A DNA stretch of 64,000 nucleotides, from assembly GCA_963930775.1 (NCBI GenBank), contig OZ005689.1:20031262-20095261 (forward strand). Reading direction: 5' to 3'. This stretch comes from Cliona cf. orientalis (lineage: Eukaryota > Porifera > Demospongiae > Clionaida > Clionaidae). Under the pieces are notes generated by a model, which saw only the letters and a program-made list of their open reading frames with translations, ran no database searches and was not told where the DNA came from. The translations under genes were made by a program, and so were the position numbers. Each line of letters begins with the position of its first letter. The first letter of the stretch is position 1. Below, one piece after another: positions 3,011 through 28,142 of the stretch.

Positions 3011-3100
3011 ATGCCCCCCAAATGAAATGAACACTAACGATAACGAATGGATACCCCAAATAGATACCCCTCCCAAAACAATACTATACACTATATAATA

Positions 3101-5754: not shown

Positions 5755-5960
5755 TTATCCCGTGTGCGTGCGCAAGGGGTAAACAATAGGTTGTGTCTGT
5801 CGTCATCAGCATGAAAATCACCAGGTCTCGAGTTCTAGGCAGCTGTGTGCATCAGCACAGGGTAGTAAATCACACATGCTGAACAGAAAATGCACGATTT
5901 ATAGCGCTAGTGAGCCATTTTCAGCACTTCAAATGCATAGAAACCAGTTATTCTGCGCAT
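5755..5960 (+). repeat. Interspersed repeat family R1, copy 2 (truncated)
   Basis: The copy starts CGTGTGCGTGCGCAAGGGGT, then GTTGTGTCTGTCGTCATCAG and CTCGAGTTCTAGGC, matching copies at 35.3 and 62.6 kb. It lacks the usual 3' end (TATGTGCTCTACAGAGCT) and runs into a different MITE at 6,016. Confidence 0.6.
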
Positions 5961-6015
5961 GCTCGAGCTCAGCGTAGAAAAGGGTTGTCAACTACTATCA
6001 CAGCAATCATGCAGA

Positions 6016-6415
6016 TACCATAGAAACTGGTTGTTAAGCGCATGTGCTTATAACACGCGGCAGCAAAAAAATATGCGCTTAACAAAAAGTATGTGCTTAG
6101 CAGGAAGCATGCGCTTAATTAAAAGTGCTAAAACACAGTAGGTGGGGCGTGCGTAAAGAACGTGTCGAGGGTAGAAAGGCCTACAACGGTGGCCAAGAAA
6201 CAACCAGAGAGCGTAATTCTCGAAGTTTTCTTCTCCAGCCTACTTCTGGCCTTCTTTCTGGGCTTATGTAACCAATCGCTCGTTGTTCACTGAATCAGCT
6301 GACTTGCTGGGCATGTGCGCCTAACAAAGAACGGTAAAGCTCGCACAAAACTATACACTTAATAAAAAGTATGCGCTTAACAGCGAGCAGTGCTTAACAA
6401 ACAGTTTGGACGGTA
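6016..6415. repeat. Degenerate TACCGTA-type MITE, third copy of the 530-bp family
   Basis: The ends resemble those of the copies at 12,539 and 23,505: a CTGGTTGTTAAGCGCATG-like left end and a CTTAACAAACAGTTTGGACGGTA-like right end. Several internal GTATGCGCTTAA units are shared with them. It lies in the putative first intron of the nuclease-like gene. Confidence 0.55.
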
Positions 6416-6517
6416 TCAGTATTTCTAGCGTTGACTAGTGAGCAATTTTCACTTAGGGTTAGGGTGACCACATAGCTGCTCGTGGTACATGTATCTCTTG
6501 TATGTATTTTATCACAG

Positions 6518-7863
6518 GTTGACATTCCAACAACTCAACCCATCGAAATATCAAGTTCTTCTAAAAGAGTAAGTATAAGTACTAGAGTAGATACTGAATG
6601 CGCATGCACCAGCACCAATAAAGTGACTATTGACTATGTTTTGCAGGTTTACATCACTGCAGAGTTTCTCTATTTTGGATTAAGATTTTGTTTATTGAAT
6701 GCAGTTATCGCAGTTATCAAATCCATTCCATCATCTTTTACCTTCAACGAACTTGAAAACTCGGTTCAGTCACAGTCACAGTCAAGTTTGAAGAAGTTTA
6801 TGGACGAGATAAAAGCTGACATACAGTGCCTAAATGGAACACAGCTGGGGGGGAAAACTGGTTGGCAATCAAATGGATTGTTTAAGAATGTTTCCGACGT
6901 TACTAGCTATGTGTATGTGTATCGCCACACGAAACATGCACCATGTTCAAGCATATTGCTTTCTGTCCTGGAGAGATCGGGTTGGGGCTTCACAATAAAA
7001 AAGGAATGGCTAACCGAATCCCAAACGAGATGTGTGCATTCTAACCACTATCATTTATTGCCATTCTTTTACGAAAATGGTTTTTTGAAATGCCACTATC
7101 AACAAGTAAGCAGTGGAGATGCTACCAACGTTGTCGCGTCATTGTTGACCGAGCTTGGTGAAATAGAGAAAATGTTGGACATAGATTGTGAATCAGAATT
7201 CTGGCACCCCGGGAAACATGTACGTGTAAATACTGGAATGAGAATGATTGGTCGAGGAGACTTGCAGCAGGGATAAAAAACACATTCAAAATAGACGCTA
7301 AATTTACTGCACAGGGCCCCTTTTGTGATTATCTATCGACTTTGGGTACTCGAAGCTTTGAAAATTGTTTCATTTTCAGAGGTTTTCCCGATATCCTTCT
7401 CCGGAATAGGAAAACAAGTGCTATAGTAGTTAGTGGTTCAGTTGATGCTAGCCCAGACCCAAACACAAGCCTAGACTCCAGTACTGACGATTCGATAGTG
7501 GAAAATTCTTGGCAGAAGCACCCACTCAAAGGAGCACAAGTAGATGATCTCCCAGAAAAGTTGGGAGAAATGTTGGCTGGATTGTACATCGTGTTGATGA
7601 GCAAAATTTTACGGAGGTTAATGAAGAACAAAGACATCAAAAAAATTTTCATAACTAAAGGAGTTTTATTGGACAAAACGACTGCAAATGTCGTCTGTTC
7701 TATGTCGTTAGATTTAAAAAACGAAGTATCACTTCCACAAATTTACGTAACGGATTGTATGGGTGCTTTGTTGACACCACAGTCATTATGCTATCTCATC
7801 AGGGCCGTAAGTTCTGCAGACAGTGATGCTGAAGAAACTGAACCCGAAGAACCGAACCAATAG
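6518..7863 (+). CDS. Nuclease-like gene (PD-(D/E)XK-type fold suspected), frameshifted
   Basis: The exon at 6,518-6,568 (17 codons, CACAG acceptor, GTAAGT donor, phase 0) joins in phase to a long exon from 6,647 (TTTTGCAG acceptor) to the stop at 7,861-7,863. The frame is lost once, near the CCCCGGG run at 7,207-7,213. Before it comes a Ser/Gln-rich stretch and a globular region. After it come an N-E-N-D-W box, F-R-G-F-P-D-I-L-L, then K-H-P-L-K and a helix-rich end with an acidic Glu/Pro tail. The FRG-PD segment resembles the central strand of PD-(D/E)XK nucleases, but the expected E-x-K after PD is absent (V-V-S-G instead), so catalysis is doubtful. The single indel could mean a pseudogene or a sequencing error. 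Family assignment is from memory of invertebrate proteins with an FRGxPD motif and is not certain. Confidence 0.55.
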
Positions 7864-8237
7864 CATGAGGAATGTATGGCATTTTATTGAACGACTTAAT
7901 GTAATCAAAGTATCAAAGCAATAATGAATGTACACATGTAACTGTCCATATCACCCTCAGCTGCTCCTACAGGAACACCCCTCTTCAGTTCAACCTATTT
8001 GATAGTCCTATTATTAGTGAAGTAATATATAATGTAGGTGAAGGGGAGCTACAAATGTATGAGGGACCTAATATTTTGGTAAGGGGAAGATAGCTGCGTG
8101 TGTGTAATAATTTCATAGATTTTTTGGGGAGTGGGGGCCCCTGCTAAATGAAATCCCGAAACACATAATGATCTCAAGTTATTAATCCCGTAAGCCGTTT
8201 TGAGTGCGTAGTTACAAAACTTGCAAATGGTGTATGT

Positions 8238-8359
8238 AATAGTTATTGACCAACTCCCGAGGTTTGTATGCAGTATAGAAGCACAAATCCCGAGGGCAAA
8301 GCCCGAGGGATGAGTGCTTGTATACTGCATACAAAGCGAGGGATTGGTCAATAACTATT
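8238..8359. repeat. Foldback hairpin with AATAGTTAT ends
   Basis: Begins AATAGTTATTGACC and ends GGTCAATAACTATT, with stem pairing through TATGCAGTATA/TATACTGCATA. The apex reads CCCGAGGGCAAAGCCCGAGGG (here split by one base from the stem). No coding capacity. The 370 bp upstream, after the nuclease-like gene, holds nothing recognisable. Confidence 0.75.
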
Positions 8360-8463
8360 TTCTAGTCCATGGTTTCCATGGATACAATAAACATGTTTTT
8401 AGCCCCCAAGAACTGTATGAATGTTTGCCCTGGCCCTCAGGAACTGTATAATAGTAAACATGT

Positions 8464-8600
8464 AATAGTTATTACCCAAGAAATGGTGCAACATGGGTTA
8501 TGTTGCACAAGGGCTGGATGTTGTCATGAGGGCGTAGCCCGAGTGAAACATCAGCCCGAGGGCAACTAACCCATGTTGCACCATTTCTTGGGTAATAACT
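8464..8600. repeat. Foldback hairpin with AATAGTTAT ends, different stem
   Basis: Begins AATAGTTATTACCC and ends GGGTAATAACT. The stem pairs AAGAAATGGTGCAACATGGG with its complement. The apex contains GAGGGCGTAGCCCGAG. A diverged copy of the stem (GGTAACACAGGTTATGTTGC) lies at 13,930-14,030. Confidence 0.75.
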
Positions 8601-8931
8601 GACTTGTTGTATTTCCCTTCTGGCAAAAACATGAGGACATTTCAACCTTATTTCTATAGGAGTGACTGCATTTTAGCCTTGGGCAAAATATGTTGCATAT
8701 GCAACATCACTTCCTGTGCAACATCAGTTATATTGTTATTGCAGAGTCTATGGGAATGAGTCTTAAGTATACAACAAATGGACATGAGCCTTACAAGGAG
8801 GGACTGTATCACATATACAGTACTGTGTAACCACATAGCAACGGGCTAGAAATTATTCAAGTGGGCAATCCACACGATGCATTGTACTTTAGCTTTTACC
8901 CCCACTTGGTCTGGTTATCTGGATTCAATTG

Positions 8932-9480
8932 CTACTGTCATTGCTTAGTTCACCTCTCTGTATGACATTTTGGAGACAATTGGGTTCGGGTTTGGGTTGT
9001 GCTTGGCTGGGTGTTGGCAGGATCACAGATAAAAGTATCAGCTCATTCAAGGCATGTCACAACTTCAAGGGAGAGAACAAAGGATGGCTGCCCAGGCAGC
9101 AAGCATCTAAATTAGTACAAACTATATACTCACATGAGTGTATGATTACTAATAATGTTATACACACTCTCCTCGTACCTGTGACCAGGACCAGCTGTTG
9201 TGTATACATGATAGAAGTTAAAGAAGGGTGTACAACTTGAGACTTGCATTTACATTCACAGCATTTTTTGTTGAGGTGGTCACAGTATGAATCTTTGCAA
9301 CGTTTTTCTGTACACTTGCAACACTTACAGCAAGCTACTATGGAAGGGACAATATACAACAAAAATGAATGCACGGTGGGTGGTGGATGAAGTTTTGACA
9401 TTGTGTACTCTTAAAGACTTTCAAAGGAGAGGGAGGAATATCTTTAATACATGAGGGACCTAATAATTGACAGCTCGGGG
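8932..9480. repeat. Interspersed repeat family R2, copy 1
   Basis: The left part (TGTCATTGCTTAGTTCACC, TTGTGCTTGGCTGGGTGTTGG, AAGGGAGAGAACAAAGGATGG) and right part (GGGTGGTGGATGAAGTTTTGA, ATGAGGGACCTAATAATT) match 15,405-16,110 in order. The middles differ. A further fragment of the left part is at 21,800-21,860. Not coding as far as I can tell. Confidence 0.6.
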
Positions 9481-10030
9481 GGGGGGGGGGGGGGTTGGGG
9501 TTGGGAAAAAAAATAAATCCGAAATGTAGAAATGGTGGATTGGAGGGATCCTCATTGAACCCATGGGGCCCAGTAGTATAGCCACAATGGTATCCAAATT
9601 TGATGAACTACAGTACTGTCTAATATGGTAACTGTATGACCTTCTAGATCAGAGCTCAGCAAACACGTTCATAATTATTCAAGACTTGTCATGACATTGA
9701 CACTATGCAGGCCAGTCACCAATCTTAATTAGCCAGGCACTAACTAATGTTCAAGAAGAGGTGCCTATATAGTACGTATAAATATGACAGCCCTATTTGC
9801 CTATAGCTAGCCCCATGGCAATGTTTAAGAGAATAATACACACACAAATGACAAACACTGGACTTGATACATATACAACATAATTATTACCTCATCTATC
9901 TCTCATAGTCATCAGCTACCAAATCGAGCAGTACAATGTCATGTAGTTCTGACCTGAGCTTGTGTGGATTATGTGTAGCAATTAAATATAGCCAGCAAGA
10001 GGTTTTTGCTGGCTACACTAATGTAGCAAT

Positions 10031-10106
10031 GTGCTGGACCTTGCGTAGATCAGTCAAGACTGAACTACCTCCAGTTTCGGCCAATTCCAGGCCTCATCAG
10101 CAGCAC
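10031..10106 (-). ncRNA. Hammerhead ribozyme, type I topology (copy 1)
   Basis: On the minus strand the order is: stem I 5' GTGCTG; core CTGATGA; stem II GGCC, loop TGGAATT, GGCC; core GAAA; a long stem III in which GTAGTTCAGTC pairs with GACTGATCTAC (one mismatch) above an internal bubble; TC at the cleavage position; stem I 3' CAGCAC. All invariant core bases (CUGAUGA, GAAA, UH) are present and stem I pairs perfectly. Hammerheads self-cleave RNA, and in animals they occur in Penelope-like retroelements and retrozymes. No reverse transcriptase lies nearby. Activity is not shown by sequence alone. Confidence 0.8.
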
Positions 10107-10412
10107 TGGCTACATGTGTGTTTGGGGTAGCCATTCTGTTTAGGGATGCTCCTGGCCCTGTTGTTCAGTCCCCTCTTGATGTGCTTTGGGTGGCAGACAT
10201 CTTATAGGACCTGGACACTTCTGGATGTCATCTCCCTGTCTCCTTGTTAGGTTGGTGTCAAGGAAGGGGAGAGATCTGTTGCTTTCCAACTCCGGATCCC
10301 CTTCCTAATTCCATAGTGGTGGGGCATATACCAAAGATATGGATCTCCATTACGCATGCAGCATGTGTCATCTACACACTGCTTCAACAACACACATGCA
10401 CTCACTCGCTCT

Positions 10413-10437
10413 CACACACACACACACACACACACAG
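10413..10437. repeat. (CA)n microsatellite
   Basis: A run of about 11 CA dinucleotides. Open frames crossing it are products of the repeat. Confidence 0.9.
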
Positions 10438-10529
10438 GATCAATCTCTGTAGCGTGCCACAATGGCTGCGACGTGCTGGAATGGCCAATGGTTCGTTCAT
10501 GTATACTAACATACGTATACGCGGTATGG

Positions 10530-10680
10530 ATGGGAGGGGTTGGGGATGGGTTGCCAATGGTTAGCAGGGTTGGATGGGAGGTTGGGGATGGGTTGCCAAT
10601 GGTTAGCAGGGTTAGTCTGTAAGGTTTGTCTATGCGTGATATGGATGGGTTGCCAATGGTTAGCAGGGTTAGTCTCTAGG
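10530..10680. repeat. Minisatellite
   Basis: Three clear units contain GGATGGGTTGCCAATGG followed by TTAGCAGGGTT, with spacing of roughly 45-60 bases. Repeat-derived open frames here are not genes. Confidence 0.8.
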
Positions 10681-10705
10681 TTTGTCTATGATAGGGAGGA
10701 AATAA

Positions 10706-10800
10706 TGATTGGCAGCAGTGGTGTAGTGGTTGGAACTCTTGTGTGTGGAACAGAATGTAGCGGGTTCAAATCTCGCTTTATACTTCGTTTTTTTTTTTTT
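10706..10800 (+). repeat. tRNA-derived SINE head
   Basis: GTGGTGTAGTGGTTGGAAC resembles a Pol III A box and GGGTTCAAATCTCGC is a good B box, about 35 bases apart. A T-rich tract and the tail TTCACTTGTCGAAATTTTTC follow. The cloverleaf does not close, so this is a SINE rather than a tRNA gene. A related head with a similar tail (TTTCTTATTCCACTTTCGAAC) is at 31,370-31,480. Confidence 0.6.
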
Positions 10801-11617
10801 CTTTTTCACTTGTCGAAATTTTTCTAAGTTCTCGCGAGCCATTCCACAGAACCAGTATAGCATGCTGCAAAGCTCTGCAAGGGATTACATATTTGTGGGT
10901 ACTACAGGCCTGTGTACTACCTTTTATGGAATTACTGAACTACATGTACCTAACTGGCCAGATAAGAGGGTAGATGGCAGCAACTGTATGATATGACCTA
11001 CACAGTCTACAGTGTCGGTAGAAATCCATGCTTGTCTGCAATGCATGCTTGAGCACTAAAGTAGCAGCAAGACTACTCATGCAGGCAGAGGGTGCCAGGT
11101 TCAGTTCACTCTAGATCTGCTGCTAAAGGCTGACTGACACTCGTGTATACAGTATAGTTGATTGCCACATGCACGATGAATAGACACAGCTTGCAAGGTA
11201 CATGCTGGCTAAAATTGAAGGCAGAACATCCAAATCTTTGGGAATGGGCTTGCTGAAATATAGACCTGACAGATTAGATAAAATAACATTACCATCCACC
11301 CCTCCCATGTGTACATGTACATGATTCATCTTGCTCCTTGAACAGTAGATTGGGTAAGGTACACGTTAATTTATGTATTATGTACATAATATGCTTTGTC
11401 TTGAGTGTACATGCATCTGTAGGACTTGATCTTTCGGTGTCAATAAACAAATTTCAAATTCTCACCTAGCTTACAGGGAGCTGGTTGTTAGAGCAAAAGG
11501 CAATGGAGAGAATTGTAATGTCTCCTTGGGTGATTGGTGTTTCTGAAGATGCATACTGTACATATACAGTTGCTCAATCATTTTTTTATATTGGCCATGG
11601 ACTACATAATTGTTTAG

Positions 11618-11714
11618 GTTTCTACGTGATTTAGAAGACGAAAGGGCTCTGTGTAGAATCCCGAGCGAAGCGAGCGTTCTACTGAGCCCTGAGGTCTTCT
11701 AATCACGTAGAAAC
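11618..11714. repeat. Foldback hairpin with GTTTCTACGTGATT ends
   Basis: GTTTCTACGTGATTTAGAAGAC pairs with GTCTTCTAATCACGTAGAAAC at the right (each shortened by one mismatch). The apex is CCCGAGCGAAGCGAGCG. A half copy (left arm only, ATGTGATTTAGAAGACCTCA) lies at 43,678-43,725. Confidence 0.75.
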
Positions 11715-11914
11715 TGACTAAACAAATTTAGATCCTGGCAACAATGCCCAAAAGCTTTGTATATAAACAATTGCCTAGCAACAAACTAGCAAACAAAATT
11801 TACCAGGTTTTATATGGGGCTTACAAGGTATTTTAATGAAGGATAGATAGTATAGTTTAACCAATCAGATCACTGTATTTGTTACAAGTAGGATCTAAAC
11901 ACATACAGTACTGT

Positions 11915-11940
11915 ACATACATACATACATACATACGTAA
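11915..11940. repeat. (CATA)n microsatellite
   Basis: Five to six CATA units. Nothing else is seen between this and the palindrome at 12,025. Confidence 0.85.
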
Positions 11941-12024
11941 GTATAGTCTGTAGAAGCAAGTAGAATAAAAATGAATGGCAGTAGCCTAGTATACTATTGG
12001 CGCTAGTCTACTATTGCGTTATCT

Positions 12025-12217
12025 GGGGTGCATTCGATCATGCATCTCATGCACCCCAATTAATGTAACTACTAGGTATATAGTAGTTATCTGACAGTAA
12101 TTGGGGTGCATGAGATGCATGATCGAATGCACCCCAATTACTGTCAGATAACTATTATATACCTAGTAGTTACATTAATTGGCATGGGGTGCATGAGATG
12201 CATGGTCGAATGCACCA
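12025..12217. repeat. Nested palindrome about 190 bp long
   Basis: An inner hairpin (about 12,083-12,156) with GTAGTTATCTGACAGTAATT ends sits near the centre of an outer inverted repeat. The outer arms share GTGCATGAGATGCATG, AATTAATGTAACTACTAGG and their complements. The inner stem and the outer arms both use the GGGGTGCATGAGATGCAT module, so one hairpin appears to have inserted into, or arisen from, a relative. Confidence 0.75.
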
Positions 12218-12227
12218 CACCCTGATC

Positions 12228-12320
12228 TGTTGGTAGTTGATCATCATTGGCCTACTTTATGAACCCACACCCAGCTGACAAATTGCCTAGGAAAAAAAGG
12301 TTGCTAGGCAACTACCAATA
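12228..12320. repeat. Small inverted-repeat element (GTTGGTAGTTG ends), copy 1
   Basis: GTTGGTAGTTG at the left and CAACTACCAA at the right enclose CATTGGCCTACTTTATGA. The second copy at 16,288-16,395 also lies immediately to the right of an AATAGTTAT hairpin, so hairpin plus element may move or be copied as a unit. Confidence 0.6.
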
Positions 12321-12538
12321 AACACACACACATGCACACGCACACACGACACCAGCTGGGATGTGAACAAAGTGGAACCTTTTGCGAATGGGGTAGCTTT
12401 GAAAAAAGTGAGAGAATGTAGAAAGTATAGAAATGGAGAAAGTATAGAAAGTCAAGGTGGTGAGGGTTGTATTGTCTCCTGGAATGCTTTCTGACTCCTG
12501 AATACCACCTCCTGTCCAGTAGTCTACATCATTTACTA

Positions 12539-13069
12539 TACCGTAAAGTCTGGTTAATAAGCGCACATGCTTATTAAGTGCATATTTTTAATAAGCACAT
12601 GCTTCCTTTCTTTTATTAAGTATTGTCTAATAGCGCATGTGCCCAATCAAGACGATAATAATAGTCATCGTTCGATCAAGAGTGCTCCATGCTCCACATG
12701 GCTAGAACTAATTTACCAACCTATTTTCGGATAGCCAGCTGCACGAGATCGGCTATACTCAACACTGCAATATTCCACTGAGACGGGTTCGGACTCTTGA
12801 CTTCGACCGAAGCGAGTCTCGCCAAAGAAGTCGGTTATTTTTCCACGGTTTTCTTCCAGCGATGGCTTCCGATCATACTCCCATGAACTATTAGTCCAAG
12901 AATCGCTGTGTTTATAACTTGCTAGCTTTATGATTGAACGCTCGAACATGCTGGCAGTGGGCGGGGCCAAAACTTCACTCTCTATTAAGCGCACATCGTC
13001 TAATAGGCGCATGTTTCCTTACCACTGAGAGTGATAAGCGCATGAGCTTATTAACCAGACTCTACGGTA
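12539..13069. repeat. TACCGTA-type MITE, 530-bp family, copy 1 (with conserved minus-strand frame)
   Basis: Terminal inverted repeats TACCGTAAAGTCTGGTTAA and TTAACCAGACTCTACGGTA, with internal GCGCATG/CTTATTAAG units. A minus-strand open frame at 12,713-13,012 (99 residues) shares blocks such as LAPPT, KLASY, HSDSW, SSWEYDRKP and LEENRGKI with the frame in copy 2 (23,549-23,857). It lacks any domain I recognise. The frame may be a captured fragment or chance conservation between young copies. Confidence 0.7.
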
Positions 13070-13658
13070 CTCTTCTTTTTGCATACACAATCAACACTCA
13101 CTTCTGATGATTTCTCCTAGTGCACCGTGTTAATAGTGGCACTTGGATTCTTTTTGACACCTGTAATAATAAAACTGAACAATGTATGACTAGTACACAT
13201 ACACGTGTAAGGCGTGTACCTTACACACAATAGTTTGTTGATAAAAAAGTACTCACTCTGTTGCTGAGCTGTTTGCCAGCTCTGTCAGCTGCTTCATATT
13301 TTCTTGAGTCTCTCCAACACTTCCTGTTTAGGTGTGACTGCATATTTGGTCTATCACTTGGTCACAAGAGATGAGACCTGAACTTCTATTCCAGCCTACA
13401 AATACACTGCATGTATCATCTAGAACATTATTAATCTACAGTGGAATGTGTACATGTACTCCTGTACCCTACAATCATGCATGCTGTACAGTAGCTACAT
13501 ATAGGGCTATACACAAATTTGTTGTAAATTACTAAGCAACCTAGTACAGTAGAGTAGTGTTCAATAGAACTGGTTGTTGAGCAGTACATGCCATACACTC
13601 TAGCCACAATCCAATTAGGTGTGCATGATTACACAACCAACAGTGCTAGATACAACAA

Positions 13659-13735
13659 AATAGTTATCTATCTGTGAGTGAGCAATATGAGCCCTTGCAG
13701 GGCTCATATTGCTCACTCACTGACAGATAACTATT
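13659..13735. repeat. Foldback hairpin with AATAGTTATCT ends
   Basis: The right half, CACTCACTGACAGATAACTATT, pairs with the left half after a few mismatches, with CATATTGCTCACTCAC in the stem and GCCCTTGCAGGGC at the apex. The same hairpin, with homologous flank in inverted orientation, is at 16,589-16,662 (the shared flank extends to about 16,830 there and 13,500 here). Confidence 0.75.
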
Positions 13736-14029
13736 ATGTACAAGTCCGTAAATGTAAGTATATTGCATAGTTTGCATGGTACTATTATATAGCACTGGGT
13801 GTAGCAGGGCTGTTGAACCATGTTTCAGTGTCAAGCATGCCATTTGTAGAGATTTCAGGGTTGTAGCTAGAAATTTTATAGAGCGGTGGAAGTGTGGCAG
13901 CAACATCTAACATGTAATAATTGATACATGGGTAACACAGGTTATGTTGCACAAGGGTTTGATGTTGTCACAAGGGCAGAGCCTGAATGCAACATCAGCC
14001 TGAGGGCAACATAACTTGTGATTACCACA

Positions 14030-14145
14030 TACCGTAGGTCGGGTTTTAATTGCGAGCATCTATTAAATACGAATTGCGAGTTTTTCACATTTCACAATTA
14101 ATAGATTCGCAAACATAAACGTTCACATAATATACTACAGTATGG
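14030..14145 (+). repeat. TACCGTA-type MITE, GGTCGGGTTTTAATT family, truncated copy
   Basis: Starts TACCGTAGGTCGGGTTTTAA and matches the first half of the full copy at 14,794 (CTATTAAATACGAATTGCGA, AACATAAACGTTCAC). The right terminal repeat is missing. Confidence 0.7.
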
Positions 14146-14793
14146 TACGGGGCCATCAGCAAAATATGATGCAACATCACTTCCTATACAACTAGTACCA
14201 TAAAAACAGCTATCACAGTGAGGGAGAAGAGTATGGGAGCTCACCAACAGCCACTTGGGACTTGAGCGTAGGCTGTGGTAAACACTGTCGTGGACAATAA
14301 ACTGATCAATGCTTCCAAAAAAAGGCACACTAGGTGATCTGTATAACACACTAAGTGCTACTTGGATCTGGATAATTGCTTCAATGCCAATGGTGTATGT
14401 GCATGAGATGGCTGCATCATATAGGAGTACCAATCCATCTTTGCTCTCACCTGATGCTCTGTCACATCTGATAGCAATCTGGTATTCACAGCCTGGGGAA
14501 GGATGTATAGCCATGCTTCACAAAAATGTATGCTAGCACACTTTAGTCTTTTGGTATCATGATATTGTAGCTCAGGCACAGTGCAACGATTTTGTATTTA
14601 GTTTGATCATTTCACGTCATTATAATCTCTTTAATGGCAGAGACACTGAAATTCAAAATGTCAGTGTTTGTAATGTTTTGAATGTCACATATGCTTGCCC
14701 TGGACTGAACTTGCCCCAACAAAACCACTCTCTGGGACACTAGACTCACGGTATCTTTGTGCCAGAAATGCCATACATCCCTCACGCTGGTAC
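14146..14793. other. No gene established; minus-strand open frame of 138 codons
   Basis: A minus-strand open frame covers 14,098-14,514 but has no motif I recognise, and its 3' part runs into the MITE fragment at 14,030. A plus-strand stretch at about 14,605-14,735 also reads openly but hits a stop at once. Both may be decayed internal sequence of a larger mobile element. Confidence 0.3.
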
Positions 14794-14999
14794 TACCGTA
14801 GGTCGGGTTTTAATTGCAAGTATCTATTAAATGCGAATTGCGAGTTTTTCTACGTTTCGTAATTATTAGATTTGCAAACATAAACGTTCACGTATACTAC
14901 GATACGGGGTCGTCCATCACAATTATTGGATTCGCAATTCGGGCTTACTTGACTAGAATGCATTTATTAAACTACACAATTAAAACCTGTCCTACGGTA
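14794..14999. repeat. TACCGTA-type MITE, GGTCGGGTTTTAATT family, full copy
   Basis: Terminal inverted repeats TACCGTAGGTCGGGTTTTAA and its near complement AATTAAAACCTGTCCTACGGTA. About 206 bp, non-coding, with TA at both ends. A solo fragment (GGCGGGTTTTAATTGGGCA) is seen near 59,247. Confidence 0.8.
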
Positions 15000-15020
15000 T
15001 TAGTCACACACACAATGAAT

Positions 15021-15404
15021 GTGTACAATGCACATACATATTGATGTAAAGATAGCGGCCTAAACATAATAGCAGCTGACACTAGTATGAGCTTCCTTGA
15101 CCCTTACACCTAGAGAGTGTGACTACAAGCACCACGTTACAATGAGCACATCAACATGACTGCCAGTTTTCGAGAAAGAGAGAATGAGAGCTCTGTAGAG
15201 CACATACCCCGTGTGCACAATTAGTACCCTAGTGTGTGCTCTTGCATTCACTTACATATACACGTCATATACATGTAGATGTGCAGTACGCGATTGAAAC
15301 AGCACATGGCACACGTGATGTGATTTGTACAGTTGAGGTAAAACAAACGTCAGCTTTGACATTTTTGATGAATATTATTATACTCACCACTCGCTAAGAT
15401 TGCC
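15021..15404. repeat. Interspersed repeat R3, copy 1 (duplicate at 22,265)
   Basis: About 380 bp match 22,265-22,648 nearly base for base (for example ATTGATGTAAAGATAGCGGC, TCAGCTTTGACATTTTTGAT and ACTCACCACTCGCTAAGATT). The middle contains GAGCTCTGTAGAGCACATACC, which is the 3' end of repeat R1 in reverse orientation. So R3 is a composite, or R1 and R3 share an end. Confidence 0.75.
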
Positions 15405-16110
15405 ACTGTCATTGCTTAGTTGACCTCTCTGTGTGACGTTTGGAGACAGTTGTGCTTGGCTGGGTGTCGGCAGGATCACTGTTAACAGTATCAGTGAGGC
15501 TCATTCAAGGCATCATGTCACAATGCCCTGGCTCAACTTTAAGGGAGAGAATAAAGGAATGGCTTGTATACAGGGGCATACAAAATGTACCTCATTTCTA
15601 CTAAGTGTAATTTGGATGATTCTATGCTCAGGATAATACAAGCAAGTCAGCTGTTTCAGTACAACACCACAAAACCACTGAATTACCTTACATGGAATTG
15701 CACAATTACATGCCCAGTCAGCAAACATCTCATTTTGTACTATGATGGAAAAACAAACTACATGTACTCAGAGAAGTCTGATGGGTGTATGAATAGCTGC
15801 ATAGTGGACAATAGTCTGGTTTGTGGCATCATGGAACTGTACTACGGTTTTCTAAATTATATACTGGCCACTATATTATACACACTACCTGGAGCAGCTG
15901 TAGTGTCACTACTTGAAGCATTAACATCAAGGTCGTATTTTTAGCAATGTTTTTGCATGCAGGGTGGGTGGTGGATGAAGTTTTGAGACAAAAGTATACA
16001 TACTCTTATTACAAGACTTTCTAGGAATTTTTTTCAAAGGAGAGGGGAGGAAGATGAAAAACAACTACAAGTACATGAGGACCTAATAATTATTAATTAT
16101 GTGTGGGGAG
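15405..16110. repeat. Interspersed repeat family R2, copy 2
   Basis: Shares both outer parts with 8,932-9,480. Between them a plus-strand open frame (15,564-15,944, 126 codons, rich in Cys, Tyr and Asn) reads through, but no domain is recognised and no splice or start evidence supports it. I regard it as internal sequence of the repeat. Confidence 0.5.
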
Positions 16111-16210
16111 GGGGGTTGGTGAATAAAAAAATGTCATGTCTTGTTAAAGCAGAAATGTAGCTAAAGGAGGAGTGGGGCCACACTGTACATGTGCGCAGTG
16201 ACATACACAT

Positions 16211-16285
16211 AATAGTTATCTGCCAGTAATTGGGGTGCATGAGATGCATGGTCGAATGCACCCCAATTACTGGCAGATAACTATT
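16211..16285. repeat. Foldback hairpin with AATAGTTATCT ends, GGGGTGCAT stem
   Basis: AATAGTTATCTGCCAGTAAT pairs perfectly with its complement at the right, continuing through TGGGGTGCAT. The apex is GAGATGCATGGTCGA. The stem is the same module as in the nested palindrome at 12,025. Confidence 0.85.
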
Positions 16286-16588
16286 TTGTTGGTAGTTGAC
16301 CTCTGTTCATCATTGGCCTACTTTATGATGACCCAACCCCTTACCATAGCCGGCAAATTACCTATAAAAACTTTGGTTGCTAAGCAACTACCAACAAACA
16401 TACGTACAGACACACACACATGGATACATACACATACGTATAGAAGAGATGCATCCTAGTGGTGCATATTTATAGCTCATGTTGCTTTACCTACTTTGCA
16501 ATGGAGTACAGGCTCTATAGATTAGTATACAACTGCGTACACATAAAATCAACTATGGTTGCTAGACAACAGCCAAGCCACATATTAT

Positions 16589-16662
16589 AATAGTTATCTG
16601 TCAGTGAGTGAGCAATATGAGCCCTGCAAGGGCTCATATTGCTCACTCACTGACAGATAACT
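16589..16662. repeat. Foldback hairpin with AATAGTTATCT ends, GAGTGAGCAATATGAGC stem
   Basis: Near-perfect 35-bp arms with apex CCCTGCAAGGG. Second copy of the hairpin at 13,659, with the same flank in opposite orientation (CACCTAATTGGATTGTGGCT, AACAACCAGTTCTAT). Confidence 0.85.
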
Positions 16663-16830
16663 GTATCTAGCACTGTTGGTAATGTAGGATTATGTAATCC
16701 TGCACACCTAATTGGATTGTGGCTAGAGTGTATGGCATGTACTCTGGGTGACTGCTCAACAACCAGTTCTATAAAACTCTTGAACACTACTCAACTGTAC
16801 TTGGTTGCTTAGTAACTTACAACAAATGAC

Positions 16831-17757
16831 TGTATATTACAGTTTGTGTGTATTTATGTGTGTATTATGTGTATGTGTATTTTAATGATCAACTCACAAA
16901 CAGGAAATATTTCTACGTAGCTCCCTGCTACTTAAAATCATCATGTGTGTTAACTAGTTAACAAGTCACAATCATGGGATAATGTGACTGAACACTACTA
17001 ATAGCATGCTATAGTACAATCGAGTGCCAGTTTATACAGCGCACACGCGCAGATGAAGACCACACCCCTCACTGCAGGCCAAGAGTAGCTGATCAAACTC
17101 ACCGTGTAATGGCGACGTTCGAGCGGAGTGAGAACGTCGAATGAGGCTCGGTGGCCTGCCGAGCAGGCCTGTCGAAACGTGCAGCGCTGGCACCGCTCGC
17201 TCGAGCTCAAGAATGCATCTTTATGGGCCGTAGGCCCTGGCAACCTCGTTTGTACACGCGGCACAACAACTCTGACCAATTGTGAGTCTTCTGAACTTGT
17301 AGGAGAGCGCATCTTTATGCCCTCCAGGTTAGGACACAAACTATACAAGAAAAATTGTCGTTGTATATACATGTATATAATTACTTCTCAAAAATGTACC
17401 CCCCTATTGCAAAACACTAATTATAGGATGTACTCACAAGGACAAACGATTCTAGATGAACTGCAATAGGTCCTGGAGAGAGGGAGAATAAGGGGGAGTG
17501 TGTATGAGACAGAGGGGAGAGAGAGGACTATAGCCAGGTGATGGGATCCAGATGGCTAGGTACTGACACAATGCATAATAATCCAAAGGTGCATTCTGGT
17601 ATAATTTCAGGGGAATTGGACACTTTTTGATACTATTGGGTGCCATATCTAAATCAGAATGAACATAAATACACAGAAGGCTGTCTACACTCCCTGTAAA
17701 TCGATCCTCAAAGTTCTTTGGATTCATTCTATCACTCTCTAAAAAAGAATATACATG

Positions 17758-17758
<1 letters not shown>
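16831..17758. other. No gene seen; GC-rich block with short hairpins
   Basis: At 17,040-17,340 the GC content rises and two short perfect hairpins occur: CGACGTTC/GAACGTCG around 17,113-17,139, and GCTCGG/CCGAGC just after. The apex of the first (GAGCGGAGTGA) recalls the GAG-rich apices of the foldback elements. Open frames on both strands here show no recognisable domain. Confidence 0.4.

Positions 17759-17799
<41 letters not shown>
17759..17799. repeat. (GA)n microsatellite
   Basis: About 19 uninterrupted GA units. Crossing open frames on either strand are artefacts. Confidence 0.95.
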
Positions 17800-17802
<3 letters not shown>

Positions 17803-17923
17803 TTGATAAATATACACACATGCGTGTGCACTATTATGTATTTGGAATAGCTCTCTCTCAAGTGTACATGTCTGTAGCAGTAGAACAGTACACAGATCAC
17901 ATGCGCAGCTAATCCTGCCCGAT

Positions 17924-17982
17924 GTGCTGGACCCAATTCTACCAATTAGGTTTCGGCCAATGCCAGGCCTCATCAGCAGCAC
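17924..17982 (-). ncRNA. Hammerhead ribozyme, type I topology (copy 2)
   Basis: On the minus strand: stem I GTGCTG; CTGATGA; stem II GGCC, loop TGGCATT, GGCC; GAAA; stem III CCTAATT, loop GGTAG, AATTGGG (seven pairs, one G-U); TC at the cleavage position; stem I CAGCAC. Every conserved core position is filled and all three helices close, with the open end in stem I. It shares stems I and II with copy 1 at 10,031 but has an independent stem III, as expected for a functional fold kept while sequence drifts. The likely source is a Penelope-like element or retrozyme; no coding part remains visible. Confidence 0.88.
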
Positions 17983-19084
17983 TGTGGGCTTCGAATTCTC
18001 CAATGTCATCTTCATCCAGTTTAGTCACAACTTAGACCGAGTCAGCAACTGTACCGTGCTAATTCCACAGAGAGAGGAGTGTGTGGCAGCGTTGATAGGT
18101 ACACACACATACATGTACATTGCTTTTTCTTTCTTCTACTATTATGGTGCATGTTAAGTACATGTATCTACCTCTCAATATGTAACAGTAGAACAGTACA
18201 TATATAGATCACAGCACTCACCCAGGCCTAAGTATTGTGCATGCACACACTGTATTAGATGTTTGCTGACTTAGCAATTGTGCAAATATAAGGTAACTAA
18301 GTGGTTTTGTGGTGGTGTACTGAAACACTTCATGACTATTGCTGTGCATACATGCTGAGTGTGCCAATTCTAATATTGCAGTGTATGTTTGAGTAGCTGA
18401 TCTCTCTCACTTTCAATGCACTTGTACACTGTAACATACATCTGTAGCACTCTGACTAAAGTTATCAATTTGGAGTAGATGTATAACTCAAAATAAACGT
18501 GAATATGTTTTCAAGCAACACATTATACATTTTTTCAGAAAAAAGATTGTCGCAAAAAAGCATCAGTTACTGCACTGCGCGTGCACAAACTAAGGCTGAA
18601 CATGCAGCTGTTTATATCTACATTGTATGTGGGCAACAATACCGTCACCATAACACACCACCTATGCTTGATAAGCTACCTCGAGAGTTATGTGCATGTA
18701 TGTGTTCCTTCCAGATACAACCCTAACCAAATGACCACTTCCACACACTCACATCAGTGCACCCCAATTAATGTAACGGTATTTGGACCTCCATTCATCT
18801 AACCCTAACGGAACCCAAACTGAAAATTGCTATGAAGATACACCTAAGAACTGACCCTCAGGGCCACCTTAGTGTATCGCTTCCAAGGCAGGCACAATCA
18901 CACCAAAAAATCACACACTCAGCCATACTACATTGTGGTCCGGTGTCAGCACATCCCTATAATATAGTGACAGCTTGCATAGTAAGCAGACACTTCAGAC
19001 ATTGTTGCTAGTTAGGTGGTGAAGCTATGAGGAATAGTATGGCATGGAGTGGCTATTATGTCTATCATGGAAGGATCTAGTGCA
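17983..19084. other. No gene seen
   Basis: A/T-rich sequence with no convincing exon. Short open frames exist but carry no domain and no supported splice sites. Confidence 0.4.
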
Positions 19085-19520
19085 GCACAAAGACCGCAGA
19101 TTATATGCATTGAAATTCCTGGTCCAAAGGAATCTCCCTCGCCCTCGCTATTCACAACCCCATGCATCCGTCAGCTGTTAAAGACTACACATGTCTAAGC
19201 TCTGCTGGATGTATACAACTGAGTGGTGCCTTGATCTGTATATATGGTACAATTCCCAATAGCTTCACCAACTACATATAGCAAGAGTGTCAGAGGTGTT
19301 TTGCTGCATCATAACAATGGAGCACTCCATTTATGCTCAGTTTGGTTAGATTACAGCACAAGGTACAGGCTACAAAACAGACCAATACTTCTCTAAGATT
19401 ACTGGCCTGTCTGCATGATAAAGAGGTGTAGCTGCTAAGACTTACTAAGATGCATGTAAAAGATGATCTGAAACCTACGTAATAGCAGCTGAGACCATTA
19501 CCAATTAATTCTTACCAAGA
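19085..19520. repeat. Diverged repeat R4, copy 1 (second copy about 30,640-30,960)
   Basis: Shared words in order include CTGGTCCAAAGGAA, GCTATTCA, GTCAGC, GCTCTGC, GGATGTA and AGTGGTGC. Both copies lie in gene-free sequence and neither is coding. Boundaries are approximate. Confidence 0.45.
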
Positions 19521-19920
19521 CCATATACTAAGTATCTATAATGAGCATTGTCAGTTTTGGAGACAGAGAGAGAAGATGTATACGACCGCATGGTGGGTAT
19601 ATGTAATCATTTTTTGGGTTGACTTGGCAGTCATGAAAATTCTACCCACGATGATGGGCGTGATAAAAAATATGGCAGCATGGCCAGTATTAGCAAGCAA
19701 GAGCTACTAGCCACTGTCCTCCAGCTAGTAGTGTACACCAATATTCTTCTATCTCATGCTATTTGTCCATGTCTCTTTGCAGGTGTGGCTTGAAAATCGT
19801 GAACAAAATTCAGCATTTGCATTGATTACATATCATTTGTGTAGCGCAATGCCCCTAGATTGGGTTGCCGTTATGAATAAATAAACTCTGAGGGACCTCT
19901 CTGAATTTCCAACCACATAT

Positions 19921-20307
19921 GCAAGGGCGTAGCCAGAATTTTTTTTATACGGAGGCAGATAATAAAGATTGCACACAAATTTTTTAGTCACGCCCCCTTA
20001 GTGGACAAACCACGCCCATTTTCGAGTGTCTACCATGATCGTAACAACATAGAAATTCTTCTCGAGTCTAGAACGGTGCGCAAAGCCGTTTTGTCGACGT
20101 TACTTACATAATCTCAGAGAGAGGCATCCGTCTTGCTCTCTTAGAGATGAAGCTATACAGTGAAAGTTCGAGTGCTTAGTCAGCAAACAAACTTGTCATG
20201 GCATGTGTGCGGCTCGGTGAGCATTGTTGTGTATTTAAGTATATAGCTGGCTGAATTGATGACCGAGGCAGCTGCCTCGGTTGCCTCTATGGTAGTTACG
20301 CCCTTGC
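19921..20307. repeat. MITE with GCAAGGGCGTAGC ends
   Basis: GCAAGGGCGTAGCCAGAATT at the left and TAGTTACGCCCTTGC at the right are inverted copies, flanked by ATAT on both sides. The interior has typical CACGCCC boxes. Elements with CAnnGGCGTA-type ends recur at 24,130, 43,827 and 44,021. Confidence 0.7.
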
Positions 20308-20784: not shown

Positions 20785-22264
20785 ATTATTACTTCTACTT
20801 TCTTGTTCAATTATAACCGCACAGATAAGCAAGACATTCCACGGGCAGCCACATGAAATTTATTTCAAGGAACATAATATGGAATGTACACCATACATAA
20901 TTATACAGTCGCTTAATAAACATTTTTATATTACCTACATACCTACATGCAGTCTACTGTGGTGGCCACAGTTAACCTACGTACACACATTACGTATCCT
21001 CTCTCCACGTACCTGTGACTAGGAGCAGCTGTTATGTGACTACTTAAAGGATGATCTCTAATTGAAGGGGATAAGAGCACTCTGTTGACCTGCTTTGCTG
21101 TTCCAAGATACTCTATCATAAAATTAATAGTAGTACATATGAAACACTTCACCATATCCTCAGTAGCTGCATAGTTATAGTGGTGCATGTGGTAAGAGGT
21201 TGTCAATAACCGAGAAAATTGCCATATATCATTGATAGTCCATGATGTTCTTATACGCTAGGTTCAAATTCTGGGCCCCAACAAGCCTTCATGCGTGCTA
21301 AACATTCTGAAACAGTCTTCACAGCAATACATTACAGGTTTCATCAAAATTTCGTCATAGCAAGAGCCGAATTTTATTGATTGGGACTCGGGATGTATTT
21401 ACACCATAGGTTACATCATACGTTATCATAGATTACACCATAATTACCTCACAACCACAGAAAAATAAATTGCTACTATATGAGATATTACGGTCAGAAT
21501 TCAACAACATACATCAGTCAATGGGGAGAGAGAGAGGTAGAGAAAGAGAGGGCTATCAATACTGTTTGCAAAGCCTTACCTAACAGCTCCCCATAAACAA
21601 AAAAATATTTCTCTCTCTCTCTAAAGAGACAGCGATGGTGTGCATCCTTTGGCTTCAGAGTTACATGTACAACAGAACCATAAACTATAGTGAAGGGGTG
21701 ATATGGTAGCTACTAGGACCTGATTATGGAGACATTTCTATGCACATGTAACTCCTATCCCAGGTCACGCCACGCGGAGGCAGATGCACAGGTGACCCTC
21801 GAGGCATTATGTCAACTACATAATGCCCCGGCTCAAATTCAAGGGAGAGAAAGAAGGAATGGCTGATTTGTGGATCGAACTGTAAGCACACAAACTAAAT
21901 ATCTCCCCACCCTACTCTCATTACAAATCAGATGTGTACTCATAGCTGCTTTGGAAAACATTCTCTAGCGAAATCATCCAAAGCTGACCGGCCAAGAATC
22001 AGCCATTACATACATACATACACAACAAGCCTTCACATTCGTCCCGACTGAGCTCTAAGAAGAGAGGAAAGATATAGCACAATACAGACCATTCACTAAC
22101 ACAAAAACGCCACATCAGTACATGCCATATATCTCCACTGACAGGAGCAACAAGTGCTCCATCATGGACGGCTCAATCATGCTGTAACTGGAGGAGCTCG
22201 ACATAAACATACACGATATAAAGAGCCCGGGCCACACTGCCTCGGTTTATGGAAGAAGCTAAAT
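20785..22264. other. No gene seen; repeat fragments
   Basis: Fragments related to 9,170-9,220 (near 21,000) and to 51,240-51,310 (near 21,150) are present, together with a piece of repeat R2 at 21,800-21,860. Open frames are short and unsupported. Confidence 0.4.
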
Positions 22265-24722: not shown

Positions 24723-25472
24723 TTACACTTCCAGGGGACATTTTTTTTTCAAAAACATAGTTAGGAACGTCCATGCAGTTTCAAAAACATAGTTAGGAAC
24801 GTCCATGCAGTGTTTGTGGTACCAGGTTTTACATACATCGCACTCGGCCATTTTATCACCTAATTCCTCGGGCAAGCGGCAGGAGCAGTGAAGGTCCACT
24901 GACTGGGTGTGCCTGACACCAACAGTCCTGCGCTCACCGACCGCTGGGAAGCGAGAGAGGCGACATTTCTCCAAGCACTCTGCCAAGTGCTGCCTCATAG
25001 ACCTGTGATTGTACTTGATCTTGCATGGGTCATTACCACTGCAAATGTCGTATGCAACTGCTAAGGCAAGGACTCCACAATCGGAACCATTTGACTGCCT
25101 TCCAACATCCATCATTCTCACTACAAGCTGTTTAGCAGGACTGAACACAAGGCTGGCAATCAATTTGACCGTCCCACTGGAAGCTTTGGAGTACATGCTG
25201 TCGTACACATTGACCACTCCATCGTCACATCCAACGTTGGAAATAGTACACCAGTGACAGCCTCCAACAAAGATGATCTGCACAAATTCTCCTCTGAGGA
25301 CTTGGAACGACAGACTCCTGTGAACTGCCGGATCTTGCAGGCCGGCTATGTTTGGGAATTCCTGCAAGATGAGCAACTGACCGGCCCTAATGACTGTGTC
25401 TGAGAGCCAACCATCAGATGAAACAATTTCCCGTTTCTTATCTATGTGCAAGGTGTACAGTGGAGTGGACAC
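24723..25472 (-). CDS. Ulp1-type (C48) protease domain and truncated PHD finger
   Basis: The frame shows the full papain-like Ulp1 signature: His in G-G-C-H-W-C, Asp in N-V-Y-D-S-M, Gln in D-V-G-R-Q-S-N, and Cys in S-D-C-G. These are about residues 73, 91, 126 and 132 of this frame. It should cleave SUMO-like modifiers or act as an isopeptidase. A PHD-type zinc finger follows: C-S-C, C-D-V-C, then W-Y-H-K-H-C. The last Cys pair is missing because a 32-bp tandem duplication (24,747-24,810) shifts the frame just after the H-x2-C ligands. Transposon-encoded Ulp1 domains are known in plant Mutator (Kaonashi) and animal Ginger elements. Confidence 0.85.
   Translation of the reverse strand: MSTPLYTLHIDKKREIVSSDGWLSDTVIRAGQLLILQEFPNIAGLQDPAVHRSLSFQVLRGEFVQIIFVGGCHWCTISNVGCDDGVVNVYDSMYSKASSGTVKLIASLVFSPAKQLVVRMMDVGRQSNGSDCGVLALAVAYDICSGNDPCKIKYNHRSMRQHLAECLEKCRLSRFPAVGERRTVGVRHTQSVDLHCSCRLPEELGDKMAECDVCKTWYHKHCMDVPNYVFETAWTFLTMFLKKKCPLEV
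24747..24810. repeat. 32-bp tandem duplication inside the PHD finger
   Basis: Two exact adjacent copies (24,747-24,778 and 24,779-24,810) starting TTTCAAAAACATAGTTAGGA. As 32 is not a multiple of three, the second copy throws the minus-strand frame off and gives an early stop at 24,723. Confidence 0.9.
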
Positions 25473-26773
25473 CCAGGTGTTGCTTACAACTGCAGAACCA
25501 TCGGCTGAAGACAGTCAGGTCAACAACAGTCTTGGCTAGGCCACAGTTACACACTTTGAGATTTGCAGAATCATTTGCTACATCTCGTAGTGAGGTCCTT
25601 CCTGTAGTTCGCCAGTTGTCTACTGAAATGGATGGATCACCGCTGATAGCCGTCAACTGCCCCTTTGCATAGCCAGTAGTGAGAACTCCCTTGTGACAAC
25701 ATAGTAGGCATCGATCACCAAACACTTGCACAACGCAGCAAGGAAGGTGACATTTGCCCAATTTGCTATCATGCAAATTCACACAGTCACCCACCTTGAA
25801 GTTGGTCCTAGGCCTTTTCGCTGGGGGAGGCTTCTCACCACCTGGCTTTTCTCTCTTTCCTCGACGAGTGGACCTCGTATCGACCGGCTTGCTTGCTTTA
25901 GGAGGTTTGGATTTCACACAATCATCATCCTTGCCATTCTTGTCAGAGTCAGCAGAAGAGGCCTTGGGAAACAATGTGCACCCAACGTTAACGATTTCGT
26001 GAGTTTGAGGGGCAATCCCTCTTGTGTGCTCGTCCGAGCGCTCCGCACACGTACACGCAGATACCACTTATTACGTCATCTTCAAAACACCAACTAGTGT
26101 CACCAGTTGGGGTAGGCACACTTTTTTCCAAAGAAATGCTTTCTGCGTCTGACAGGGTATCCTCAGAATAGGAAATGACATCATTATTGTCAGATGCTCT
26201 GTCATCCACAGAAACATCACTTCTCTGATTCTTTACGTTCAAAGGACACTCACTATGGTTGGTACGTAGGTGAGTGGTGGACCCACACTTGCACGTCCCT
26301 CCAGTTGTACGCTTCTTCTGTCCTTTACGTTTGAGTTCATCTTCGTCTATGTCACTGTCGTCACTGCCGTAGGTATCGTGGCCATGCTTCTTTGACCACA
26401 GCTTGCGACGCTGTGCATCCACTGTTCGCTCACTTTTCAACTGTATTCGCCTCCGCTTGGAGGAATCGGTCTTTTCCTGATCTAAGTACATCATTCTCTG
26501 TCGATTGAATGTCTCCAGAGCAGCCTGAACACCATCAAACACAGGTAGCTTCAGACGCTCAAACAGCTCAACCACCCAATGATATTGTGGCCCACGCTTC
26601 TCATACATGTATGTCATGTTGGATTGCAGCAGAGCCAGCTCGGTTGAAACCACATAGTGTAGCCTCTCGAGGAAGATGTGCTTTGGTCTGAAGCGAATGA
26701 ACACATTGTGGGAGGCCTCCAACCAATTGGAATGCCCCCTTTTAAGAATGGGGTGAACCAGCTGTTCGGCCAT
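25438..26773 (-). CDS. Linker of the transposase: zinc knuckle and basic region (two frames)
   Basis: From about 26,750 the second frame continues the transposase (LKRGHSNWLEASHNVFIRF). It passes an Arg/Lys-rich helix and a run of Asp (DDSDIDEDE), then the CKCGSTTHLRTNHSECPLN motif, a form of zinc-knuckle-like sequence seen in many invertebrate transposon proteins. A Ser/Asp-rich tail follows. Near 26,050 the frame changes again to a Lys/Pro-rich basic stretch (possible nuclear localisation). A compact segment beginning F-K-V-G-D-C-V and ending G-Q-L-T-A-I follows; by spacing it resembles the small beta domain before Ulp1 in Ginger-type integrase elements. That resemblance is from memory. Confidence 0.6.
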
Positions 26774-28142
26774 TTCTGCTCTCTCATGGTATCAATTTCG
26801 TAAGCCAGAGAGTGGAAAGGACATGTCAGTGCATGCCTTGTGTGATAGTCTGTTCCTTCGCACTTCAGATCCTCTCCATCCTTACACTCGCCACAGCTGC
26901 ATACTCGAAGTTGGTGAAAGTCACACCTACCAAACCCCCAATCGTGCTTGTCGCGGGCATGTCTGGCCAATCCTTTCATCCTGGTTGCAAACTCTTCGGC
27001 AGATTCACTCATCGACAAAATTAGCGAAAAGTAGTTTCTGGCCTTTTCAATGAACGCCTTGGAGAAGCAACCACATCCCTGTTTGTGCCTTGAGCAATGA
27101 CAGACCACATCGCCAACAGAGGGAAAAGTGTCTTTATACTTTCTTATTAAATCAACAGTGAAGGACTTGATTTTCTGCAGCTTTTCTAGCTGCTTCTTGT
27201 GGGCCCTACCGGCATGCCCACCACAGATCATGATCTCTGCATTGGGAAAGTGGTCTGTCACTGCCTTAGCAGAGGAGTCGGCATCTTGCCACTGAATGGC
27301 AATGTTCATCCCTTCCTCCTTGGCTTTTTTGAACGTAAGGCGTGCGGCATAGCCTTCGGCACCCTTGGATGTCCCCTGGTAGAGCTCTTCTTTAATTATG
27401 TCATCTCTGCCTTTCTGACAGAGGTGCTTGCGGTAAAGAAGAGCTCCATTGTAGTAGTTTCGAATGCTGAAAGTAGCATTCTTGCTGTGATGACCACGTG
27501 TCATCCACGTGCCGTCAGCGGACGTGACGGCACGACTCCATGAACCCAGTTCATTTTGGTCCATGCGTTGCATGTCATCCTTTGCATCACTACACATCTT
27601 ATCGACCATCTCTTTGACAATAGGGTACATTCTCTTGATGGTCGAGTCAAACATTGGCCAGCTAACTCCTTCAATCCCAAGTGCATGCTTCAATACCTTG
27701 TAATAAGTCACATGCGTGCAACCAGCTATGATAAAAGCCACCTGCACAGCAATACTAATTTCGGTAGCACAGCCAAGTTCGTATTTAGATGATGTTTCAA
27801 ACAATGCCCACTGACTAGCACAACCGTTACAAGCATAGGTGATAGAAAGAGCACCACCCAGCCCAAGGCTTTTCACATGAATGGGACACAATGCACCTTT
27901 ACAACCAGGTGTGGCACAACAACGTATTTGATTCACTTGCTTGATGAACTTATTCAATTGTTTCAAGTCCACGAAGCAAATATTTGATGGAATAATTGAC
28001 GTATGCCCTCTCTAACCTTTCTTTGAGGGGTTGGAATGTACAGGGAGCCATCATTACTCTCCACTGTCACGTTGAGACTGTCAGTCTCTTCATCACCCTC
28101 CACTGTCAGATTGAGACTATCATTATTTGACGTGGGAGTATC
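26614..28142 (-). CDS. Mutator-like transposase catalytic part
   Basis: After a leader ending P-T-P-Q-R-K, the frame shifts near 28,010 and resumes as GHTSIIPSNICFVDLKQLN. It then gives a Cys-rich N-terminus (CCATPGC, then C-x2-C about 25 residues later). Next is a region with S-A-D-G-T-W (first catalytic Asp), W-Q-D-A-D-S-S (second Asp), and C-G-G-H-A-G-R-A-H-K, the C/H motif typical of MuDR-type transposases. Downstream come a Cys-rich C-H-C-S-R-H-x-x-G-C-G-C segment and an F-H-x-L-R-V-C-S-C-G-x-C motif. I could not place the third acidic residue with certainty. Such transposases cut and paste DNA in the nucleus, leaving 8-11 bp, usually 9-bp, target duplications. That matches MITEs at 34.2, 39.0 and 57.6 kb. 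The frame ends out of register at about 26,740, where the continuation lies in the next frame. Confidence 0.85.

Follow-up and report, generated by a model that had tools for sequence, protein, structure and literature searches.

A minimal hammerhead motif on the minus strand of a contig from the sponge Cliona cf. orientalis raises two questions: is it a genuine self-cutting ribozyme, and what kind of element left it there? The window analysed here is a stretch of 64,000 nucleotides (C1:20031262-20095261) from a source genome of 216.8 Mb. Type I hammerheads sit in small non-coding repeats of animals with units of 150-450 bp, and animal retrozymes have a GC content below 50%, as set out in the parts of Cervera and de la Pena (2020, PMC7229834) drawn on here. 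By the same account, retrozyme RNA is processed to monomers, which are closed into circles and copied back into genomic DNA; Penelope-like elements have been proposed as the helpers (PMC7229834; reviewed in PMC7761336, also used in part). A literature search joining hammerhead ribozymes with Porifera found none, a search joining hammerhead, Penelope-like and Naiad likewise found none, and one with Amphimedon found a single paper; nothing firm on novelty in the phylum can be drawn from these.

We put a probability of roughly 80% on the motif, here called W2, being a real type I hammerhead that stems from a retrozyme-like retroelement, non-coding and non-autonomous. The evidence comes from the motif and its helices, from covariation among its relatives, and from the tandem and inverted units and the one target duplication that those relatives hold.

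Structure of the window hammerhead

The minimal W2 motif lies at 17924-17982 (minus strand), where sequence, fold, descriptor and family agree. The first-pass annotation, made from the letters alone, had named a core and three helices there; all of them are present, and together they are the minimum-energy structure of the 59 nt (-21 kcal/mol). Read from 17982 to 17924, the motif consists of the inner stem I strand GTGCTG, the catalytic core segment CTGATGA (17970-17976), stem II GGCC/GGCC with the 7-nt loop TGGCATT (17955-17969), the core GAAA (17951-17954), stem III CCTAATT/AATTGGG with the loop GGTAG (17932-17950), then T, C and the returning stem I strand CAGCAC. The two core segments are read directly from the sequence, stem II is also seen in the fold, and stem III in both the fold and the relatives. 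The cut is predicted between C17 (17930) and C1.1 (17929).

While the minimal motif had been placed correctly, its ends were set too short. An outer stem I, formed by GCCC (17986-17989) and GGGC (17917-17920), closes beyond an internal loop ACA/ATC and extends the full ribozyme to 17917-17989; this outer stem comes from folding and is found again in relatives. W2 has the type I core, with CUGANGA, GAAA and, following U16.1, an H17 other than G (here C), and the type I topology of three helices open at stem I. Helix III has seven pairs beyond A15.1-U16.1. At the level of sequence, the minus strand of 17917-17989 is confirmed as a complete and genuine type I hammerhead, and it would be expected to cut itself.

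Support from shuffled sequences and Rfam

Chance assembly of the motif had been called very unlikely, and for the arrangement as a whole this holds. A descriptor comprising CUGANGA, a 4-bp stem II, GAAA, a 5-bp stem III closed by A-U, H17 and a 6-bp stem I has a single match in the window, at 17976 (minus), and none in 1500 dinucleotide shuffles searched on both strands. Simpler measures are unremarkable. The bare core (CTGATGA, 4-30 bases, GAAA) occurs three times in the window against 1.2 expected, and at least three times in 8 of 100 shuffles. The folding energy of the 59 nt has a z of -1.77, with 14 of 200 shuffles folding equally well, and that of a longer piece a z of -1.47, with 17 of 200 as good.

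No match anywhere in the window reaches an Rfam gathering cut-off. The best match of W2 is Hammerhead_HH9 (RF02275), at 30.1 bits against a cut-off of 52 (E 8.9e-6 in a 351-nt search, 0.0016 in that of the whole window). W2 resembles this family in its core and in having both an internal loop and an outer stem in stem I, and is unlike it in its loop II, TGGCATT in place of an A-rich loop. RAGATH-1-hammerhead follows at 24.2 bits against 56.3 (E 0.063), and Hammerhead_1 is not among the matches listed for W2, a list that keeps only the best of each clan. Taken alone, the Rfam evidence is weak. A covariance search of the minus strand had been proposed as a check, with a score below threshold counting as a refutation; the score does fall below threshold, but it is overridden by the evidence from the family.

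A family of hammerhead copies

A core pattern is found at 70 places in the source genome and its reversed control at none. C1, with 37.5 of the 216.8 Mb (17% of the genome), holds 64 of the 70, and the others lie on C2 (2), C5 (1), C12 (1) and C16 (2). A second pattern has 35 genomic matches, two of which look like chance, and again none for the reversed control. Three types of loop II occur among the core matches: TGGCATT (W2 and others), TGGAATT and TGGTATT.

In a similarity search with a 201-base query (17860-18060) and 40 of 79 candidates scored, at least 25 matches are near full length, 3 cover bases 1-133, and a further 12 take in the ribozyme plus at most about 50 bases more; 37 of the 40 coincide with a core-pattern match. 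Copy counts of this kind are lower bounds, because only 40 of the 79 candidates for this query, and 40 of 121 for a query from the flank upstream of the TGGTATT copies, were scored.

The pairing of the helices was followed in 38 distinct variants, a set that leaves out loci L029 and L061 (the latter has no recognisable 3' strand). Since the loci were picked by a pattern in which the core and stem II are largely fixed, and by a regular expression that does the same for the inner stem I 3' strand, free evidence comes only from stem III, the outer stem I, the stem I 5' strand and H17. Over stems I-III, 592 of 608 helix cells hold standard pairs, and stem II appears as GGCT/AGCC in two of the variants. 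Pairs 2-6 of stem III are formed in 177 of 190 cases, against a mean of 149.9 and a maximum of 166 in 2000 re-dealings, and all first six positions of this stem are paired in 31 of the 38, the pairing being kept through differing sequences. Scored at whichever of four offsets suits it best, the outer stem I is completely paired in 30 of 38 variants, by way of GCCC/GGGC, GTAGC/GCTAC or ACAGC/GCTGT. At the cut site, H17 is C in 33 variants, A in 3 and T in 2, and never G. Counted by eye, 36 of the 38 have CA ahead of the inner strand of stem I, which bears on a putative contact between loop I and loop II. Three related copies (L009-L011) have CTAATGA in place of CTGATGA, and some copies are therefore probably dead.

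A second member of the family, W1, which the first-pass annotation did not mention, lies at 10022-10114 (minus) and is supported by pattern, fold and relatives. Its loop II is TGGAATT, and its outer stem I pairs TGTAGC with GCTACA; stem III is long and interrupted, for which reason the strict descriptor misses this copy. W1 and W2 have 35 nt in common at 97% identity, and W1 is found by pattern at three more places in the genome. The pair of W1 and W2 is present again near 36.68 Mb of C1, where 3.2 kb around W2 are 97% identical to the window. A direct repeat around W1 (score 28 against 20 or less in 10 shuffles, offset 1045) is C-rich and was set aside as low-complexity.

It is thus well supported that the W2 family consists of ribozyme-carrying repeats present at dozens of loci across the source genome, repeats of a kind already known. 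Its window copies escape the Rfam cut-offs in spite of this support. With natural variants in stem III, exchanged outer stems I, cut sites with C, A or U, and copies with a changed core, the family offers material for tests of how type I ribozymes evolve in mobile elements, and of whether they are retained once the element stops moving.

Surroundings and possible traces of an element

Between subfamilies (W1, W2, L012, L013, L015-L021 and L024), homology centres on the ribozyme and runs out no more than about 115 bases to either side of it, in many cases much earlier; W1 has just 35 bases in common with the other subfamilies compared. The ribozyme therefore lies in differing surroundings. Within the W2 subfamily, kilobases are common to the copies, with insertions and deletions, and this indicates recent spread by DNA duplication and not by fresh insertion. 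The near-identical W2 copies accordingly look like duplications of DNA, as of duplicated host DNA, rather than new insertions. Four pairs of W2-type copies stand 9.0-9.6 kb apart on C1, each with a 401-bp non-coding repeat between them (21610-22010 in the window). The 401-bp segment lying upstream of the members of the TGGTATT subfamily is no exon, as it has stops in all six frames.

The W2 copy itself has one ribozyme and a weak, partial direct repeat, not a clean tandem. The repeat pairs 18069-18213 (upstream copy) with 17779-17901 (downstream copy), both on the minus strand, at an offset of 289-312; it is diverged and partly low-complexity. Its score of 80 is reached in none of 500 shuffles, the highest of which scores 76, so that the score gives weak evidence for a possible unit of about 290-312 bp. 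No target duplication was identified for W2 or W1. Self-comparison of the window also showed local direct repeats at 45607-45908 and 41562-41807.

Relatives elsewhere in the genome stand in more element-like arrangements. At locus L017, two units in direct orientation, spaced 518 bp apart, are accompanied by one in inverted orientation, and a 12-bp target duplication, ACATCTTGTATG, stands at both outer sides. L018 carries direct repeats of about 96 bp at its ends. In L107 a pair of hammerhead motifs lies about 155 nt apart, and the first of the two has CTGGTGA.

The statement that no coding trace was left stands as regards protein domains, Pfam giving nothing at E up to 0.01 in the six frames of 5001-20000; the diverged direct repeat is a possible trace of the non-coding sort. 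Among related loci, Pfam matches in L105 and part of L079 were set aside as below the cut-off, one of integrase type (19 residues, E 0.00019, 21.7 bits against 26) and two other weak ones (E 0.0084 and 0.26).

Two frames are open across W2, 17810-18157 on the plus strand and 17452-18024 on the minus strand, and the motif might in principle be a chance arrangement within a coding exon. Insertions and deletions of 1 nt and 4 nt in sister copies shift both frames, which speaks against a coding exon over W2, no Pfam match was found in the six frames of 5001-20000, and the result of the descriptor in shuffles and the covariation among relatives speak against chance. This explanation is largely contradicted and we give it almost no weight.

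Origin of the ribozyme

Compared with the animal non-LTR retrozymes, as described in the parts of PMC7229834 used here, W2 is alike in being type I, in its paired helix III, in having no coding potential that could be found and in the GC of its surroundings (42%), and the motif pair of L107, about 155 nt apart, fits the same pattern. In the retrozyme criterion a target-site duplication, when present, is longer than 4 bp, and that of L017 has 12 bp. W2 differs in having a single ribozyme and at best a partial repeat, the units of L017 differ in their spacing (518 bp, above the 150-450 bp given in those parts of PMC7229834) and in one being inverted, and the sister copies of W2 differ in their common multi-kilobase flanks. 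A retrozyme-like remnant is the best reading of W2. In a living element, the transcript would hold one or more units and would be self-cleaved after C17 in every ribozyme. The resulting unit-length RNA could be circularised, and the circle copied back into the genome by the reverse transcriptase of another element. The window copy would then be an old one, at best partly repeated, that was later multiplied by multi-kilobase duplication of DNA on C1. The earlier claim that the motif marks a ribozyme-bearing retroelement agrees with this as far as the relatives go, which stand in retroelement-like units; for the W2 copy, we infer its origin by retrotransposition. No autonomous element with the W2-type ribozyme was identified, the domain search of the genome having covered GIY-YIG.

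The main rival is kinship with Penelope-like elements. The ribozyme would then belong to the pseudo-LTR of such an element, or to short derivatives of it, and would process that element's transcript instead of serving a retrozyme. Copies of Penelope hold direct and inverted units, of which the direct and inverted units of L017 and the inverted arrangement of L023 are reminiscent, and W2 shares with the minimal hammerheads of these elements its type I form as well as these arrangements in its relatives. The GIY-YIG domain occurs in Penelope-like elements, among others, and has 20 matches above the Pfam cut-off in the source genome. At L006, a GIY-YIG frame (1740-3200, open for 487 aa in the stretch examined, with the domain at residues 120-206) and a W2 copy are separated by about 0.5 kb; the frame may possibly be a Penelope-like element with GIY-YIG on the N-terminal side. 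However, it starts near the point where the shared repeat breaks off (1758) and therefore looks like a later insertion that interrupts the W2 copy, and a Penelope origin based on L006 was set aside on this ground. No reverse transcriptase domain was seen in the stretch of this frame, and Pfam searches in the six frames of 5001-20000 of the window found no element joining a reverse transcriptase with a GIY-YIG frame. Furthermore, Penelope hammerheads are described, in the parts of PMC7761336 used here, as minimal and without helix III or loop-loop contact, whereas W2 has a helix III and 31 of the 38 variants pair six stem III positions. On balance, Penelope kinship seems unlikely.

A host role has been proposed for intronic hammerheads of amniotes, and W2 could similarly be a domesticated, cis-acting ribozyme with a host function within duplicated loci. 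The family would in that case have left mobile life, with multi-kilobase duplication almost wholly within C1, a ribozyme less variable than its flanks, and many loci with a working self-cutting site in a host role. In 23 W2 copies, 12 of 96 ribozyme columns are variable, while the flanks vary in 41 of 150 columns on the 5' side and 67 of 154 on the 3' side; these copies are 23 of the 25 full-length matches, with L011 left out and the changed-core L009 and L010 kept apart, and the variability of the flanks is inflated because they hold microsatellites. The core is still matched in nearly all scored matches of the 17860-18060 query (37 of 40, as above), but that query itself spans the ribozyme. 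Eight of nine close copies of the TGGTATT upstream flank have the core within 1.3 kb downstream (the query locus among the eight, the ninth unread), though such retention is expected anyway in close copies, and none of the 29 C1 copies of this flank at 79-81% identity has it within that distance. Nine of those 29 have a core 3.4-5.5 kb downstream, including W2 of the window at 3.7 kb. The data on copy variation and core retention are compatible with selection and do not prove it, and the Pfam searches of 5001-20000 found no host gene. Both domestication as such and the history it implies for the family appear distinctly improbable.

Other hammerheads and outside collections

Further hammerheads were found with Rfam models. 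A genome search with RF02275 gave 7 listed matches, none over the cut-off, with 58 of 15143 candidates scored, and one with RF00163 gave 6 listed matches, 4 of them over the cut-off, with 73 of 21693 candidates scored; 10 of these 13 matches were read. Six (L110-L115) have the loop CAAAAA, which is A-rich and HH9-like, and the core CTGACGA, and four (L116-L119) the loop II CAANTA. On rescoring, L116 and L118 stay above the cut-off and L117 drops from 38.2 to 32.4 bits, below the cut-off of 34. The Hammerhead_1 (RF00163) copies L116-L119 are like W2 in being type I with the same core type, and unlike it in their stem I, loop II and stem III; they lie on C2, C14 and C16. Together, L110-L119 are spread over C1, C2, C3, C14, C15 and C16, and one genome thus holds several kinds of hammerhead.

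Each searched with one exact core pattern, a viral collection gave no match and a collection of bacteria and archaea a single one. The latter, L029, lies at 3537-3563 (minus) of JAHRAH010000185.1, filed as a gammaproteobacterial MAG, and shares the core and stem II, while inspection by eye shows no inner stem I. Its surroundings are rich in repeats, which suggests that JAHRAH010000185.1 is a misbinned eukaryotic contig.

Further features of the window

Four overlapping frames of 249, 209, 261 and 452 aa lie at 24723-27972 (minus). The first contains a PHD finger together with a below-threshold match to an Ulp1 (C48) protease, and the other three have no Pfam match; they are perhaps a decayed or intron-containing transposon-like gene. 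A tRNA-like sequence at 37723-37795 (minus) scores 27.7 bits against an Rfam cut-off of 29. Repeated self-complementary units occur at 12024-12219 and 16203-16289, with a sub-threshold MIR2950 match at 12023-12137. Two hairpins, at 16592-16662 (34-nt perfect arms and a 3-nt loop) and 13655-13739, are similar to each other and MITE-like, with sub-threshold matches to Rfam miRNA families.
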